This document shows, in pieces, positions 22,745 through 41,444 of a stretch of DNA of 64,000 nt. The number at the start of each line of letters is the position of its first letter. Position 1 is the stretch's first letter. This stretch comes from an uncultured Pelagibacteraceae bacterium. Its GTDB lineage: Bacteria; Pseudomonadota; Alphaproteobacteria; Pelagibacterales; Pelagibacteraceae. The stretch is taken from positions 46,896-110,895 of the forward strand of contig CABZJA010000001.1 of NCBI GenBank assembly GCA_902525935.1, in the 5' to 3' direction. The translations under genes and the position numbers were made by a program. The notes under the pieces were generated by a model, which searched no databases, was not told the DNA's origin, and saw only the letters and a list, made by a program, of their open reading frames with translations.

Positions 22745-23104
22745 ATGCCAGATAAATGACTTATCGCTTTAATTTATTAAAGAGGAAAGTCCGGGCTCTA
22801 CAAAGACACAGTGCCAGTTAATTGCTGGCGGGGGAAACCCTAGGGATAGTGCCACAGAAAATAAACCGCCTTATCAAGGCAAGGGTGAAAAGGTGTGGTA
22901 AGAGCACACCGGCTAAGTTGGTAACAACTAGCGCATGGAAAACCCCACTGGGAGCAAGACTGAGTAGAGATGACATTGTTAGAAATAACTAAAAGCAGTC
23001 TTTGGCTAGTCATCAGGGTTAGTTGCTTGAGCTTTAAAGTAATTTAAAGCCTAGATAAATGATAAGTTTAAATGACAGAACCCGGCTTATAGTTTATCTG
23101 GCAT
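22745..23104 (+). ncRNA. rnpB: RNase P RNA (bacterial class A)
   Basis: P1 pairing ATGCCAGATAAA/TTTATCTGGCAT at the ends; GAGGAAAGTCCGGGCTC, CAGTGCCAG...GGGGGAAACCCTAGGGATAGTGCCACAGAAA, GCAAGACTGAGTAGAGATG, GACAGAACCCGGCTTATAG signatures. Confidence 0.95.
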
Positions 23105-23161
23105 TAAAAAATTATCTTAAATATTCAATAAATCTTGAAAAATGACAACATAATATTTGCT

Positions 23162-23205
23162 ATTGACGCTTACTTATAAAACCCATAATATCCCATAAAA
23201 ACCCA
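23162..23205 (+). promoter_or_regulatory. mraZ promoter with predicted MraZ operator (three TGGGN repeats on minus strand, 10-bp period)
   Basis: -35-like TTGACG (23162) and -10-like CATAAT (23184); ACCCA-taata-TCCCA-taaaa-ACCCA at 23181-23205 = TGGGT-N5-TGGGA-N5-TGGGT. Confidence 0.75.
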
Positions 23206-23225: not shown

Positions 23226-23681
23226 ATGTTTTTATCAACTTACGAAAACAAATTGGACAAAAAGGGAAGGGTTTCAGTGCCTGCATCATATAGATCTTAT
23301 TTATCAAATATTGGCTATAATGGTATAATTTGTTATCCATCTTTTAATAATCAGTGTATTGAGGCATGGCCTCAAGATCGAATAGAAAAAATTTCAAATG
23401 CAATTGACTCTCTCAACCCTTTTGAAGAAAAAAAAGATTATTTTGCAACTTCTATATTATCTGAAAGTATAAACTTACAATTTGACAGTGAAGGAAGAGT
23501 ACAAATAACTCCAAAACTATTAAAACATGCAAAAATTAAGAATAGCATGTTATTTGTTGGTCAAGGTAAAACATTTCAAATCTGGGAACCAACACTTTTT
23601 GAAAAATTTAGGGCAAACGCTAGAAAAAAATCAAACATTAATAGAGCAGGTCTTAAATGGGAAAAACAATTTAATAACTAA
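23226..23681 (+). CDS. mraZ: Transcriptional regulator MraZ
   Basis: [23 protein letters not shown]...[21 protein letters not shown]. Confidence 0.95.
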
Positions 23682-23692
23682 AAGGGGAGAAA

Positions 23693-25138
23693 ATGACAAT
23701 AAACTTTAAAACACCAGATATAAAAGAACTTAAACCACGAATTCTAGTATTAGGCGTGGGAGGAGCTGGAGGAAATGCAATAAATGGAATGATTGATGCT
23801 GGTCTTCAGGGTGTAGAGTTTATTGCAGTTAATACAGATGCTCAAGATTTAAGATTAAGTAAGGCACAAACTAAAATACAAATGGGTTTAAATTTAACAA
23901 AAGGTTTAGGCGCTGGAGCAAAATTAGATATTGGTCAAGCTGCTGCAGATGAGTCATTAAATGAAATAGTTAACGTTCTTCAAGGTGCAAATATGGTTTT
24001 CATAACAGCAGGAATGGGAGGCGGAACTGGCACAGGATCTGCTCATGTTATCGCTAGAGCAGCAAAAGAATTAAATATTTTAACAGTTGGGGTTATAACA
24101 CTTCCATTTTTATACGAAGGTCCATCTAGAATGAGAAAAGCTCAACAAGGACTAGAGGAACTTAGAAAACATGTAGACACTATTATTGTTGTTCCAAATC
24201 AAAATTTATTCAAAATAGCCAGTGAACAGACAACTTTTGAAGAATCTTTTGAATTATCAAATGATGTTTTGCTGCATGGAGTCCAAAGTATTACAGATTT
24301 GATGGTCAGACCAGGTCTTATCAATTTAGATTTTGCTGATGTTGAAACTGTTATGAGCTCAATGGGTAAAGCAATGATGGGAACAGGTCAAGCAGAGGGT
24401 GAAGGGAGAGCTGTTAAAGCAGCAGAATCTGCAATAAACAATCCTTTAATTGATGATTATTCGTTAAAAGGGGCTAAAGGACTTCTAGTTAATATAACTG
24501 GAGGTAAGGATTTAAAATTATTTGAAGTTGATGAGGCAGTTAATAAAGTTAGAGCAGAGGTTGACCCAGAAGCTGAGTTAATTATCGGAGCTATTACAGA
24601 TGAAAGTTTAGACGGATTAATGAGAGTTTCGATTGTTGCAACAGCATTAGATGGTCAGCAACCCGAGCCAAAGTCTGTGATAAATATGGTTCATAGAATT
24701 CAAAATAGAAATCCAGGCTACTCCGAATTCTCAAATTCTGGATCTACACAATCATTTCAATTTACAAATAATAGTAATTCGATAATTACTAATGGAGCAA
24801 ATGCACTTAAAATAGAGGAAGAAGTTCAAAAAGAAGAATTAGCTTCCAACGGTTTAGATAGCAGTGATTTAAATGAAATATCAAGCACTTTAAAAAGCGA
24901 GACTTTAGAGCAACCGGAAGTTCCTTCAGTAAATGCAGATAATGTTGATATTGACAGTAAGGCTGAAGAACAAATTTCAGAGAACAATGGCCTAGAAAAT
25001 TTTGAATTAAGTGACGATGATACACCTGAACTATTTAATTCAGATACTAATGAGGAATTATTAAATAATTCAGAAGATATAAATTCAGAAGAAGAAGATT
25101 TAGAAATCCCAGCATTTTTGAGAAGACAAAAAAATTAA
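23693..25138 (+). CDS. ftsZ: Cell division protein FtsZ
   Basis: [29 protein letters not shown] tubulin signature, C-terminal [11 protein letters not shown] peptide. Confidence 0.97.
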
Positions 25139-25156: not shown

Positions 25157-26149
25157 ATGAATGCCACCATAAATCTGGAAAAACATTTTCCAGTATTACT
25201 AAATGAACTAGTTAGTATTATTTCCCCTCTTTATGGTGGCACATTTATAGATTGTACTTTTGGAGCTGGGGGCTACTCAAAGAAAATATTAGAAGAAACT
25301 TCAAATAATGTTATAGCATTTGATAGAGATAAATCTGTAAAAAGTATTGCCAATGAACTTCTTTCAAAAAATAAAAAAAGATTTAAATTTTATAACTCAA
25401 AATTTTCAAGTATAGACCAAATTAAAAATGAAAATATTAAAGGTGTCATTTTTGATCTAGGATATTCATTAAATCAAATATCTGACTTAAATCGAGGACT
25501 ATCATTTAGGAGTAAGGGTAAATTAGATATGAGAATGGGATTAAATGATTTTTCTTGTAACGATGTAATTACACACATGAGTCAAACAAATCTTTATAAA
25601 ATTTTTAAATACTTTAGTGACGAAAAATACGCAAAACCAATATCAAAAAAAATAGTGCAACTAAGAGAAAATAGAAAAATCGAGACAGAAAATCTTGTAG
25701 AAATCGTTGAAAGTATAAAGAAAAACAGAAGTGGAAAAAATAAATCTACGAAAATTTTTCAAGCTCTTAGAATTTTTGTAAATAAAGAGATTAGTGAACT
25801 TATGAATGGGTTGATAAAAGCATATAATATTCTACCTATTGGAGGAGTAATAGCTGTTGTAACTTTTCATTCAATTGAAGATAAAATAGTAAAATTTTTT
25901 TTTAAAGAATATTCAGAAACAAAAAATTTTTCTAGGTATTTACCAAAATCTATTACAGAAAAAACATATTTTAAATTAACGAAAAAAAAACCAATAATTC
26001 CATCACCTTTTGAAATTAAAATTAATCCACCATCAAGATCTGCGAAACTTAGATTTGCTTATAAAGTAGATAATGGATGTAATTTTAAAAATTTTGTTAA
26101 TCAATTTAAATATTTGAAAGATATTGAAAACTTAAGCTTTGATGTTTAA
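25157..26149 (+). CDS. rsmH: 16S rRNA (cytosine1402-N4)-methyltransferase
   Basis: HFPVLLNELVSIISPLYGGTFIDCTFGAGGYSKKIL; FDLGYSLNQI; FHSIEDKIVKFFFKE. Confidence 0.95.
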   Translation: MNATINLEKHFPVLLNELVSIISPLYGGTFIDCTFGAGGYSKKILEETSNNVIAFDRDKSVKSIANELLSKNKKRFKFYNSKFSSIDQIKNENIKGVIFDLGYSLNQISDLNRGLSFRSKGKLDMRMGLNDFSCNDVITHMSQTNLYKIFKYFSDEKYAKPISKKIVQLRENRKIETENLVEIVESIKKNRSGKNKSTKIFQALRIFVNKEISELMNGLIKAYNILPIGGVIAVVTFHSIEDKIVKFFFKEYSETKNFSRYLPKSITEKTYFKLTKKKPIIPSPFEIKINPPSRSAKLRFAYKVDNGCNFKNFVNQFKYLKDIENLSFDV

Positions 26150-28049: not shown

Positions 28050-30881
28050 ATGATGAATTTAATAAATTTTTTTAAAAATTTAAAAAAAGAAATAAATTAT
28101 AAAAGTATCAAAGGATTTGAATTTAACTCAAAAAAAATAAAAAAAAATTACATATTTTTTGCCATTAAAGGAAATAAAATTAATGGTAATAATTATATAA
28201 CAGAAGCTATAAAAAATGGAGCTAAAGTAATAGTATCAAATAAGTTTAAAAATGGTGTCAACAAAGGTATAGTTTATATTAAAGTAAGTGATCCTAGATT
28301 AGCTTTATCAAATTTTGCAACAAGATATTATTCTCAAAAACCAAAAAATATAATTGCTGTGACAGGCACAAATGGCAAATCATCTATAGCAAATTTTTAC
28401 TACCAGATATTAAAACTTAATAAAAAAAAAGTAGCTTCAATTGGAACACTTGGTGTTAAATCAGATAAAATTAATTTAAAACTTGATAATACTACTGTTG
28501 ATTCAATCATAATAAATAAATTACTTTCAAATTTGAAGCGTAAAAAAATTGAAAATATAATATTAGAAGCCTCTAGCCACGGACTCCACCAAAAAAGATT
28601 ACATGGTATAAAATTTAACACTTCTATATTTACAAACCTAAGTAGGGATCATTTAGATTATCATAAAAATTATAAAAATTATTTTAATTCAAAGTTAATT
28701 TTATTTAATGAATTAACAAAAAAAAATGGTAATTTGGTATACGATAGTGACACAAAACTCTCTAACATTTTTAAAAAAATTGCCAAAAGAAAGAAATTGA
28801 ATTCATTAAGTATCGGAAAATACAATAGCAATTTAAAAATTATTTCGATAAAAATTTTAAACAATAATCAGCATGTAAAATTTTCTTACCAAAATAAACA
28901 ATATCAATTTAAAACTAGCTTAATTGGAAAAATACAAATTAAAAATTTGATTATGGCGGTTGCTGCAGCACTTAGAAGTGGTTTAAAAATTGATAATATT
29001 ATTAAAAATCTTGAATATGTTAAACCAACAAACGGAAGAATGGAGTTAGTTGGTAAAACTAAAGATAATTCTATAGTAATTTTAGATTATGCTCATACTC
29101 CTGAAGCACTTAAAACTTGTATAGAAAATGTCAAAGAACAGTTTGGTCTAAGAAAAATTAACATTTTATTTGGATGTGGTGGTGAAAGAGATAAAGAAAA
29201 AAGACCAATCATGGGCAAAATTGTAAATAAATTGTGTAATTTCATTTATCTTACAGATGATAACCCCAGAAATGAGAGTCCAAAAGAAATAAGAGATAAT
29301 ATTAAAAAGTCAATCCTACCATCCAAAATGATTGAAATACCCTCAAGAAAATTAGCCATAAGAAAAGCAATTTTAAATAGCAAGTCTGACGAAGTTCTTA
29401 TTATTGCAGGGAAAGGACACGAAAGTACTCAAGAATATAAATTTAAAAAAAAATTTTCAGATAAAGATAATATAAGAAAATCTATAATTTTTAAAAATAG
29501 ACATTTATCAAATGATTGGAAATTAAATATTCTTAAAGAAATAATAAAAAATAAGAAATTAGACAAATTAAAAAATTTTAAAATAAGCACCAACTCAAAA
29601 GTATCAAATAAAGATAAAATTTTCTTTGGAATTAAGGGCAAATCTTTAAATGGTAATGATTTTGCTGATGAGGCCATTAAAAATGGAGCAAAACTTGCAA
29701 TCCTTCAAAATACTAAAAATCTTAATCAAAAAAAAATTAATGTTAAAAATACTTTAAAATTACTAGTTAAGTTATCTCATAAGATAAGAGTTTCTTCAAG
29801 TGCATCTCAAGTTGCAATAACAGGATCTTCTGGCAAGACATCACTAAAAGAATTATTAGGTCAATGCCTACAAAAAAGCTATTCTACAACTTTTTCAAAA
29901 AATTCATTCAACAATAAATTTGGTTTACCTATATCTTTAATAAATTTGAGTAAGAATACAATTTATGGAATATTTGAAATTGGTATGGATAAAAAAGGAG
30001 AGATAGATTTTTTATCACAAATAATTAAACCAGACATTGGAATTATTACAAATATCAGTTATGCACATGCTAAAAATTTTAGAACTTTATTTGACATTGC
30101 TAAAGCTAAATCAGAGATTATTTTCAATATAAGAAAAAACGGAACAATTATATTAAATAAAGATGATAAATTTTTTGATTTTTTTTCAAAATTAGCGAAA
30201 AAAAATAATTTAAATGTTATTTCTTTTGGAAAACATAAAAATTCTAATATTAGATTATTTAAAATAAAAAAAACTAAAAAAAACTGTATTATATATGTTA
30301 GTGTAGATAATAGAATTTATAATTTTAAAATTCATAACAATTTATTACCTTACGTAGAAAATATATTAGCTTCTGTCGCAGTTTGTAAAAGTCTGAGTAT
30401 TATTGATAAAATAAAAAATAACTTTTATTATAATTACCAAATACCTATCGGTAGAGGAAACATTAAGAAAATTAGTCTTGGTTCTAAAAAAATAAACATA
30501 ATAGATGAAAGTTACAATTCAAATCCATTATCACTAAATTTTTCAATTAAAAAATTTGATAATTTAAAGATAAATCCAGATAAAAAATTTATACTACTAG
30601 GTGATATGTTGGAATTAGGAAAATTTTCAAAAAAACTTCATATTGAGGCAGCAAAAGAAATCAATAAGGCAAAATTCAAAAAATTGTTTGTTTATGGGAA
30701 TAATATCATTGATACTTTTAACAAAATTAGAACACAAAAAAAAGGAAAAGTACTTAAATCAACAAGTGATATTCTAGATATAATAAAAAATGATTTAAAA
30801 AATAATGATTTTCTAATGATCAAAGGTTCAAATTCAACAGGTCTTAACCAAATAACAAAAAATATTGGAACAAAATCTTAA
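28050..30881 (+). CDS. murE-murF: Bifunctional MurE-MurF fusion (UDP-MurNAc-tripeptide synthetase / D-Ala-D-Ala-adding ligase)
   Basis: 943 aa single ORF: MurE half with VTGTNGKSSIANFY, DNPRNESP; MurF half starting ~aa 490 with ITGSSGKTSLKE, FEIGMDKKGEI, DESYNSNPLS, LGDMLELG. Confidence 0.95.
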   Translation: MMNLINFFKNLKKEINYKSIKGFEFNSKKIKKNYIFFAIKGNKINGNNYITEAIKNGAKVIVSNKFKNGVNKGIVYIKVSDPRLALSNFATRYYSQKPKNIIAVTGTNGKSSIANFYYQILKLNKKKVASIGTLGVKSDKINLKLDNTTVDSIIINKLLSNLKRKKIENIILEASSHGLHQKRLHGIKFNTSIFTNLSRDHLDYHKNYKNYFNSKLILFNELTKKNGNLVYDSDTKLSNIFKKIAKRKKLNSLSIGKYNSNLKIISIKILNNNQHVKFSYQNKQYQFKTSLIGKIQIKNLIMAVAAALRSGLKIDNIIKNLEYVKPTNGRMELVGKTKDNSIVILDYAHTPEALKTCIENVKEQFGLRKINILFGCGGERDKEKRPIMGKIVNKLCNFIYLTDDNPRNESPKEIRDNIKKSILPSKMIEIPSRKLAIRKAILNSKSDEVLIIAGKGHESTQEYKFKKKFSDKDNIRKSIIFKNRHLSNDWKLNILKEIIKNKKLDKLKNFKISTNSKVSNKDKIFFGIKGKSLNGNDFADEAIKNGAKLAILQNTKNLNQKKINVKNTLKLLVKLSHKIRVSSSASQVAITGSSGKTSLKELLGQCLQKSYSTTFSKNSFNNKFGLPISLINLSKNTIYGIFEIGMDKKGEIDFLSQIIKPDIGIITNISYAHAKNFRTLFDIAKAKSEIIFNIRKNGTIILNKDDKFFDFFSKLAKKNNLNVISFGKHKNSNIRLFKIKKTKKNCIIYVSVDNRIYNFKIHNNLLPYVENILASVAVCKSLSIIDKIKNNFYYNYQIPIGRGNIKKISLGSKKINIIDESYNSNPLSLNFSIKKFDNLKINPDKKFILLGDMLELGKFSKKLHIEAAKEINKAKFKKLFVYGNNIIDTFNKIRTQKKGKVLKSTSDILDIIKNDLKNNDFLMIKGSNSTGLNQITKNIGTKS

Positions 30882-38641: not shown

Positions 38642-39314
38642 ATATAAAATATATTTTTATATAATTTCTTTTCTTTTTATTTCTACAATAATAAATCAAA
38701 ACTTTTTAAATACTTTTGATAAATTTTTTTTAATAAATAAAATACAAATTTATACTAATTTTCCGAAAATTAACAAAAAAATATTAAATCAAATTAATTA
38801 TTTGGATGACCAAAATATATTTTTTATAAATAAGAAAAATGCTTTAAAAAATTTGAAAAATTTAAATTTTTTAGAAAAAATTGAAATTAAAAAATATTAT
38901 CCCTCAACCATATTAATAAAAGCATACAAGACAGAAGTTATTGGAATAACTTACTTAAAGCAAAAGAAATATTATGTAGGACTGAACGAACGCTTTATAC
39001 TATCAAAAAACTTATCGACGAATAAAAAATTGCCGTTAATATTCGGTAGTTTTAAAATTTCAGAATATATAGATTTGTTATCACTTTTAAAAAATCAAAA
39101 TATAAATACTGAATCAATATTAAAGTTTTATTTTCATAAAAATAGAAGATGGGATCTATATTTTGAAAATAATATTATCATAAAATTACCTAACAAAAAT
39201 ATTGAAGAAGCGATCATAAAATATAAAAATTTAAAAAACTTTAAAAAAGAAATAAAACCAAACACAACAATAGACTTGAGAATAGCAAATAGGATAATAA
39301 TTAAAAATGACTAA
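38622..39314 (+). CDS. ftsQ: Cell division protein FtsQ (POTRA-containing)
   Basis: N-terminal TM, POTRA-like region (FLEKIEIKKYYPSTILIKAYKTEVIGI), position between ddl and ftsA. Confidence 0.8.
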   Translation: MLQSINKYKIYFYIISFLFISTIINQNFLNTFDKFFLINKIQIYTNFPKINKKILNQINYLDDQNIFFINKKNALKNLKNLNFLEKIEIKKYYPSTILIKAYKTEVIGITYLKQKKYYVGLNERFILSKNLSTNKKLPLIFGSFKISEYIDLLSLLKNQNINTESILKFYFHKNRRWDLYFENNIIIKLPNKNIEEAIIKYKNLKNFKKEIKPNTTIDLRIANRIIIKND

Positions 39315-40461
39315 ATCTAACTTTTTTAATATTATAGACTACGGATTATCAAAAATAAGAATTGCTATATTTGATAGCAACTTAAACATTTGTTATTCAG
39401 AAAGTATATTAAAAAAATCAATTGATAAGAGTGAAAATAATTTTGATAATTTAAAAGATATAATTAGAAAAGCTGAAAAAAAAATTTCATCTCATATTGA
39501 AGATATAATTTTAATTTTAGATAGTAAGAAAACATTAGTCATTGATGTTTCATTGCAAAAAAAACTTGATGGTAACATGGACTTTACAAAAGCTTATGAG
39601 TTTCTCACACAAGAAATTTATCAAATTATTAGTGATAATTATAATGAATATGAAATAATTCATACAATATTTAATAATGGAATCGTTGATGAAAAAATAT
39701 TCGATAGTTTACCCAAAAATGTAAAAGATGTTAAACAAATTAAGATTGATTACAAAGTAATCTTGTTTCCAAAAAAAAATATACAAAATATAAATAATTA
39801 TTTTAATAAAAATAATTTAAGTATTTCAAAAATTTTTTGTACAAGTTATTTAAAATCTCAATCTTATCTAAGCAAATTAAATTTGGACAAAGTAAGTTTT
39901 TTAGATATTGGGTATGAGAGATCATCACTGGTGACATATGAGAATAAAAAGTTAAAATATGTTAATTCTATTAACGTCGGTAGCCACAATATTACTAAAG
40001 ATATTTCCAAAATATTTAAAATTGAAGTAGATCATGCAGAAAAAATAAAGAAATTATTTAATAAATCGGAAACTGAGTTTTCTTATAATAATAATAGAGA
40101 TACTAATTTATCACTAAAAGAAATTATTAAAAAAAATATTTCAATTGATTTATTAAAACAAGTCGTTTTGTATAGAGTGCAAGAAATTTTTGATTTAACT
40201 TTTAATAAATCTTCGATTAGTAATTTTAATTTTGAGGAAACTAATTTATTTTTAATAGGGGATGGATCAATTATGTTCAATAATAATTCTTTTTATTTAA
40301 ATGATAAATTTGGTTTTAAATCGATCAATTACTTCGAAGAATCCGATATCCAAATATGTAACTCTGGTGCATCCTATTATGTTAAAAATTTTGGTACATC
40401 CAAGATAACCTATAAAAAACGTGGTTTATTTGAGAGATTTTTTAATTTGTTTGACATATAA
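39307..40461 (+). CDS. ftsA: Cell division protein FtsA
   Basis: IIDYGLSKIRIAIF, FLDIGYERSSLVTY, INVGSHNITKDISKIFKI, LFLIGDGSIM; amphipathic C-terminus. Confidence 0.88.
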   Translation: MTKSNFFNIIDYGLSKIRIAIFDSNLNICYSESILKKSIDKSENNFDNLKDIIRKAEKKISSHIEDIILILDSKKTLVIDVSLQKKLDGNMDFTKAYEFLTQEIYQIISDNYNEYEIIHTIFNNGIVDEKIFDSLPKNVKDVKQIKIDYKVILFPKKNIQNINNYFNKNNLSISKIFCTSYLKSQSYLSKLNLDKVSFLDIGYERSSLVTYENKKLKYVNSINVGSHNITKDISKIFKIEVDHAEKIKKLFNKSETEFSYNNNRDTNLSLKEIIKKNISIDLLKQVVLYRVQEIFDLTFNKSSISNFNFEETNLFLIGDGSIMFNNNSFYLNDKFGFKSINYFEESDIQICNSGASYYVKNFGTSKITYKKRGLFERFFNLFDI

Positions 40462-40523: not shown

Positions 40524-41444
40524 GTGTCTATATTAACTCAAAAAACAATATCAAAAAAAATATCATTTTCAGGAGTAGGAATTCATACAGGTAATGCTGT
40601 TAATATGAATATTCTGCCAGCTTCTCCTAATACTGGAATTGTTTTTAAAAGACTGGATATACAAAAGAATAATATTGTTTACCCGCTTTATAACAATGTA
40701 ACAGACACAACACTTTGTACAACAATATCAAATAATCACGGTGTACAAATATCCACAATAGAGCATCTAATGGGTGCATTTTATGGAATTGGTATAGACA
40801 ATGCGATTGTTGAATTAGATTCTAAAGAGGTGCCTATAATGGATGGTTCAGCAAAATTATTTTTAGATGGTATTAATAATGCTGGTATTAAGTTTAGTGA
40901 TCAGCCTATCAAAATAATAAAAATAAACAAAGAAATAAGTGTTAAAGATAGTGAAAAAATTATTTCAATAAATAAATCAAACGTCACTAGTGATATTCAG
41001 TTTGAAATTAAATATGATAATTCATTAATTAATTCTCAAACAAATAAAGTAAACATTTTTGAGGATAATTTATTAGATATATTTTGCTCTAGAACTTTTT
41101 GTTTATTTGAAGATATTGAAAAGCTAAAAAAATTAAATCTGGGCAAAGGTGGCAGCTTAGAGAATGCAGTTGTTGTGAAAGATAGTAAAATATTAAATAA
41201 AAGTGGTTTGAGAAATGACTTAGAATTTGTAAATCATAAAATATTAGATTGTATGGGTGACTTATTTTTATCTGGTTACAAAATTATAGGTTCAGTTAAA
41301 TGTTCACAGGGAGGTCATTATCTTACAAACAAGCTATTGAAAGAAGTCTTCAGAGATCCAGAGAATTACTCATTAATTGAAATAAAAGGTAAACAGTTGC
41401 CACATACATTTACCAACTATCAAAATTTAAAGTCTATCGCTTAA
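40524..41444 (+). CDS. lpxC: UDP-3-O-acyl-N-acetylglucosamine deacetylase
   Basis: TQKTISKKISFSGVGIHTG, STIEHLMGAFYGIGIDNA, FVNHKILDCMGDLFLSG. Confidence 0.95.
   Translation: MSILTQKTISKKISFSGVGIHTGNAVNMNILPASPNTGIVFKRLDIQKNNIVYPLYNNVTDTTLCTTISNNHGVQISTIEHLMGAFYGIGIDNAIVELDSKEVPIMDGSAKLFLDGINNAGIKFSDQPIKIIKINKEISVKDSEKIISINKSNVTSDIQFEIKYDNSLINSQTNKVNIFEDNLLDIFCSRTFCLFEDIEKLKKLNLGKGGSLENAVVVKDSKILNKSGLRNDLEFVNHKILDCMGDLFLSGYKIIGSVKCSQGGHYLTNKLLKEVFRDPENYSLIEIKGKQLPHTFTNYQNLKSIA

Follow-up and report, generated by a model that had tools for sequence, protein, structure and literature searches.

A predicted MraZ operator at the mraZ promoter of the Pelagibacterales (SAR11) dcw cluster, with ftsZ as the next gene

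Eraso et al. reportedly described, in 2014, the E. coli MraZ boxes as TGGGN repeats (cited in PMC8475190). In the K-12 sequence itself, from which the E. coli orientation was taken in the present study, TGGG stands on the coding strand at positions 292, 302 and 312 of locus L112, and mraZ starts at 335. MraZ boxes and the repression of mraZ and the dcw cluster by MraZ have been reported from both E. coli and M. genitalium (PMC8475190); the boxes of the Mollicutes, as found in M. genitalium, are direct repeats of AAAGTG[T/G], and loss of MraZ in this bacterium raises MraW, FtsZ and MG_223 (PMC8475190). In the window (the whole stretch of DNA analysed, 64,000 nucleotides, from an uncultured Pelagibacteraceae bacterium), a site with three TGGG repeats precedes mraZ. 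Judged from its sequence, it is very probably a genuine MraZ operator of the Pelagibacterales (SAR11) dcw cluster, i.e., an element of a known kind, and a division regulator that is among the most conserved would thus keep its predicted binding site in small-genome bacteria that abound in the ocean. The features of the locus are as follows.

22748..23105, plus strand: rnpB, the RNase P RNA gene, directly upstream of mraZ (Rfam RF00010, 291.6 bits)
23163..23168, plus strand: -35 hexamer TTGACG (103 Pelagibacterales loci have TTGAC starting 19 nt upstream of the first CCCA)
23181..23205, minus strand: predicted MraZ operator, three TGGG repeats with a 10-bp period, assigned from sequence, chance tests and conservation (repeats on the plus strand at 23181-23185, 23191-23195 and 23201-23205)
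23186..23191, plus strand: -10 hexamer TAATAT, which takes up the first spacer of the repeats and lies 17 nt past the -35 hexamer
23226..23681, plus strand: mraZ, 151 aa, presumed repressor (Pfam MraZ, E 5.6e-23; NCBIfam NF001477 above the cut-off)
23693..25138, plus strand: ftsZ, 481 aa, present in single copy and moved to the place next after mraZ
25157..26149, plus strand: mraW/rsmH, start of the remaining dcw cluster

The repeats and the promoter of mraZ

The plus strand of the site, read directly from the window, is ACCCATAATATCCCATAAAAACCCA; the minus strand reads TGGGT-TTTTA-TGGGA-TATTA-TGGGT, so that three TGGGN direct repeats are separated by 5-nt gaps and TGGG recurs with an exact period of 10 bp, just as the sequence-only reading had described. 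A scan of both strands for TGGG-N6-TGGG-N6-TGGG revealed this single instance in 64 kb, and the source genome assembly (1,063,673 bases, 77% complete) contains the same triple and no other. No such triple occurred in 100 dinucleotide shuffles of the window or in 20 Mb of simulated sequence (first-order Markov), where 127 TGGG pairs were counted. Other repeat periods were tried, from 6 to 15, and rejected; triples were found at 10 bp only.

The site lies in the mraZ promoter, 20 nt upstream of the gene, and overlaps the -10 region, as had been proposed; the hexamers themselves required correction. The -35 hexamer starts at 23163 rather than 23162, and the -10 hexamer suggested earlier, CATAAT at 23184, would stand 15 nt past it, whereas TAATAT gives a 17-nt spacer, at a position kept in relatives. 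All 103 Pelagibacterales loci with TTGAC have TANNNT 17 nt past the -35 hexamer (TAATAT in 81), so that the -10 hexamer fills the gap from the first repeat to the second. In an alignment of 61 distinct promoters, where the CCCA columns were fixed by the alignment rule, the flanks vary around an invariant TTGAC, an invariant -10 hexamer and the CCCA series in 10-bp steps. Transcription would start at about 23198. A terminator was looked for between rnpB and mraZ and none was found, so read-through from rnpB could partly bypass the control of the promoter. Of 12 loci of relatives searched with Rfam, 11 also have rnpB next to mraZ.

The product of mraZ belongs to the MraZ family: the Pfam PF02381 domain is present in two stretches, and the protein is intact, with both DxxxR motifs (D11/R15 and D87/R91) conserved. 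The closest matches all belong to Pelagibacteraceae (top identity 99%), and solved structures are available for relatives of the protein (1n0e, 9qlr, 9qlg and 9sx6).

Conservation and orientation of the site

The gene mraZ was found in 50 of 61 genomes (the source genome and 60 relatives). The exact pattern ACCCA-N6-CCCA-N6-CCCA is present, in one copy each, in 44 of these 50, and in none of the 11 genomes without mraZ, many of which are incomplete assemblies. By inspection, five of the other six mraZ-bearing genomes contain a triple with a different first letter (G003, G012, G039 and G050, corresponding to loci L013, L006, L016 and L024, and G042); the mraZ frame of the sixth, G060, is short. 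In total, the operator is present in at least 49 of 50. Among the named Pelagibacteraceae loci, the triple was found in 79 of 80; in the remaining one, the contig ends within the site. In the other family of Pelagibacterales, the in-phase repeats number as many as five (L016, L024 and L029), and a second genus of Pelagibacteraceae (G148) has two exact repeats and a degenerate one. Motif conservation at orthologous mraZ promoters had been named beforehand as the test on which the operator assignment could fail, and the assignment passed it.

The direction of the repeats was compared in the 300 nt upstream of mraZ, in loci that were taken from each survey as its top mraZ hits by score and not as a random sample. 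In every one of the 110 Pelagibacterales loci, TGGG runs against mraZ. The 30 loci of other Alphaproteobacteria show this direction in 26 cases (four undecided, none opposite), whereas TGGG runs with mraZ in 23 of 30 loci of non-alphaproteobacterial Pseudomonadota (seven undecided, none opposite). A class survey, in which operator positions were matched to mraZ positions, found at least 66 genomes with the exact triple upstream of mraZ, always on the opposite strand and never on the same one. Template-strand TGGG is thus general in Alphaproteobacteria, and the direction of the site splits cleanly between this class and the other Pseudomonadota sampled. The base before TGG also differs: outside the class, including E. 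coli, it is G (89%), whereas Pelagibacterales have A or T and the other Alphaproteobacteria A (86%). The non-alphaproteobacterial repeats start mostly 33–43 nt past TTGAC, i.e., beyond the -10 hexamer.

The position of ftsZ and the remaining dcw cluster

In the window, mraW is followed by a small membrane protein at the ftsL position and then by ftsI; further downstream lie a MurE-MurF fusion, mraY, murD, ftsW, murG, murC, murB, ddl, ftsQ-like and ftsA-like genes and lpxC, where the dcw genes without a family search were named from their order and sequence. The fused murE-murF forms one 943-aa frame (28050-30881), which matches the bifunctional model NF008896 over nearly its full length, below the cut-off. 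The ftsA-like protein (39307-40461) gives a weak match to the FtsA model (83 bits, the cut-off being 176), which suggests a strongly diverged FtsA.

The usual ftsZ slot is empty in the window, since the ftsA-like gene ends at 40461 and lpxC starts at 40524. The gene next after mraZ is ftsZ in 108 of 110 Pelagibacterales loci; no gene was matched behind mraZ in the remaining two, one of which (L016) is at a contig end. Throughout the Pelagibacterales examined, a single ftsZ lies between mraZ and mraW and not between ftsA and lpxC, and of the 61 genomes, 49 encode one FtsZ C-terminal domain and none encodes two. In contrast, mraW is next after mraZ in 28 of 30 other alphaproteobacterial loci, in all 30 non-alphaproteobacterial loci and in E. 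coli.

Given this relocation of ftsZ directly behind mraZ, the two genes would be co-transcribed, and MraZ probably controls ftsZ, the key division gene, directly in SAR11; with ftsZ as the next gene, it becomes testable whether MraZ directly sets the FtsZ level in this group.

The order mraZ-ftsZ-mraW, with rnpB and an amidase gene upstream, was also observed in family f9 of the same class and another order, which has small genomes (L173 and L174, i.e., G187 and G067) and is possibly, as a guess, related to the disputed HIMB59 lineage. Two other alphaproteobacterial families (L175 and L176, i.e., G231 and G222) have the order mraZ-mraW-ftsZ, and a shift of ftsZ towards mraZ therefore seems to have happened on more than one occasion. 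Adjacency of mraZ and ftsZ was considered as a lineage marker and set aside, as f9 shares it and these two families have mraZ-mraW-ftsZ.

A broader scenario, which we put forward tentatively and rate at a little below even odds, is that across Alphaproteobacteria the MraZ operator was reversed and shifted to the core promoter, with another preferred base before TGG, and that ftsZ was then brought directly behind mraZ in SAR11. If so, the alphaproteobacterial and gammaproteobacterial operators either originated separately or were separately rebuilt, with the regulator retained, and MraZ would exert direct feedback on the dosage of FtsZ in a lineage that has few regulators. No literature was found on MraZ boxes in SAR11, on their orientation in Alphaproteobacteria or on ftsZ directly after mraZ in SAR11; the search was thin on subscription journals, and priority is not claimed.

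Predicted action of MraZ and comparison with known systems

It is highly likely, from the sequence comparisons, that 23181-23205 is the autoregulatory mraZ operator of SAR11, through which MraZ would repress mraZ and the genes that follow. MraZ, probably as a multimer, would bind one face of the DNA, where the three direct repeats are in phase, and, lying across the site, would cover the -10 hexamer in the first spacer and the likely start point, so that RNA polymerase could not open the promoter. Transcription would be limited for mraZ, then first for the single ftsZ and then for mraW and the peptidoglycan genes; a fall in the MraZ level would release mraZ, ftsZ and the later genes.

Repression rather than activation is proposed by analogy, since the orientation and position of the operator differ from those of the experimentally studied E. 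coli case. The same difference could be taken to mean that MraZ binds here as an activator or an architectural protein, which we consider improbable, as the repeats lie on the -10 hexamer itself, where a bound protein normally blocks polymerase, and as the cluster is repressed by MraZ in E. coli and M. genitalium (PMC8475190). Another transcription factor might occupy the repeats, e.g., a PdhR-like regulator, given that weak enrichment of PdhR was seen at the mraZ operator of E. coli (PMC3265435). This appears very unlikely, as the 10-bp direct repeat of TGGG agrees with the repeats before E. coli mraZ, is present at a single site per genome, that of mraZ, and goes along with this gene from one family to another. 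Chance repeats from an A+T-rich promoter, which the A/T-only spacers might suggest, would be expected about 6e-4 times per window (assuming independence of the observed TGGG counts) and are refuted by conservation, the spacing being identical in over 100 loci whose flanks have diverged.

The repressor operator of SAR11 favoured here shares with that of E. coli K-12 three TGGG repeats, an exact 10-bp period, a place about 20 nt before mraZ and a location behind a sigma-70-like promoter. In K-12, TGGG stands on the coding strand, the repeats are downstream of the -10 hexamer, G precedes TGG and mraW is the next gene, whereas in SAR11 TGGG is on the template strand, the -10 hexamer is inside the repeats, A or T precedes TGG and ftsZ is next; the E. 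coli type of arrangement is thus not that of this locus. The E. coli architecture claimed in the sequence-only reading therefore holds for the repeat unit and period only, as TGGG faces against mraZ and encloses the -10 hexamer, and the base before TGG differs. Its claim that dcw autoregulation is retained in a streamlined genome stands as regards a conserved operator-promoter of mraZ in a small-genome lineage, and repression would follow the known cases; that reading had missed ftsZ, rather than mraW, as the next gene and the reversed orientation across the class.

The Mollicutes system resembles that of SAR11 in having direct repeats at the mraZ promoter, one site per genome and a small genome, and differs in its repeat unit and in the reported order mraZ-mraW-MG_223-ftsZ (PMC8475190). 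The mraZ promoters of other Alphaproteobacteria have the same inverted orientation and 10-bp period, but the number of repeats and their offset to the -35 hexamer vary, and mraW normally follows mraZ.
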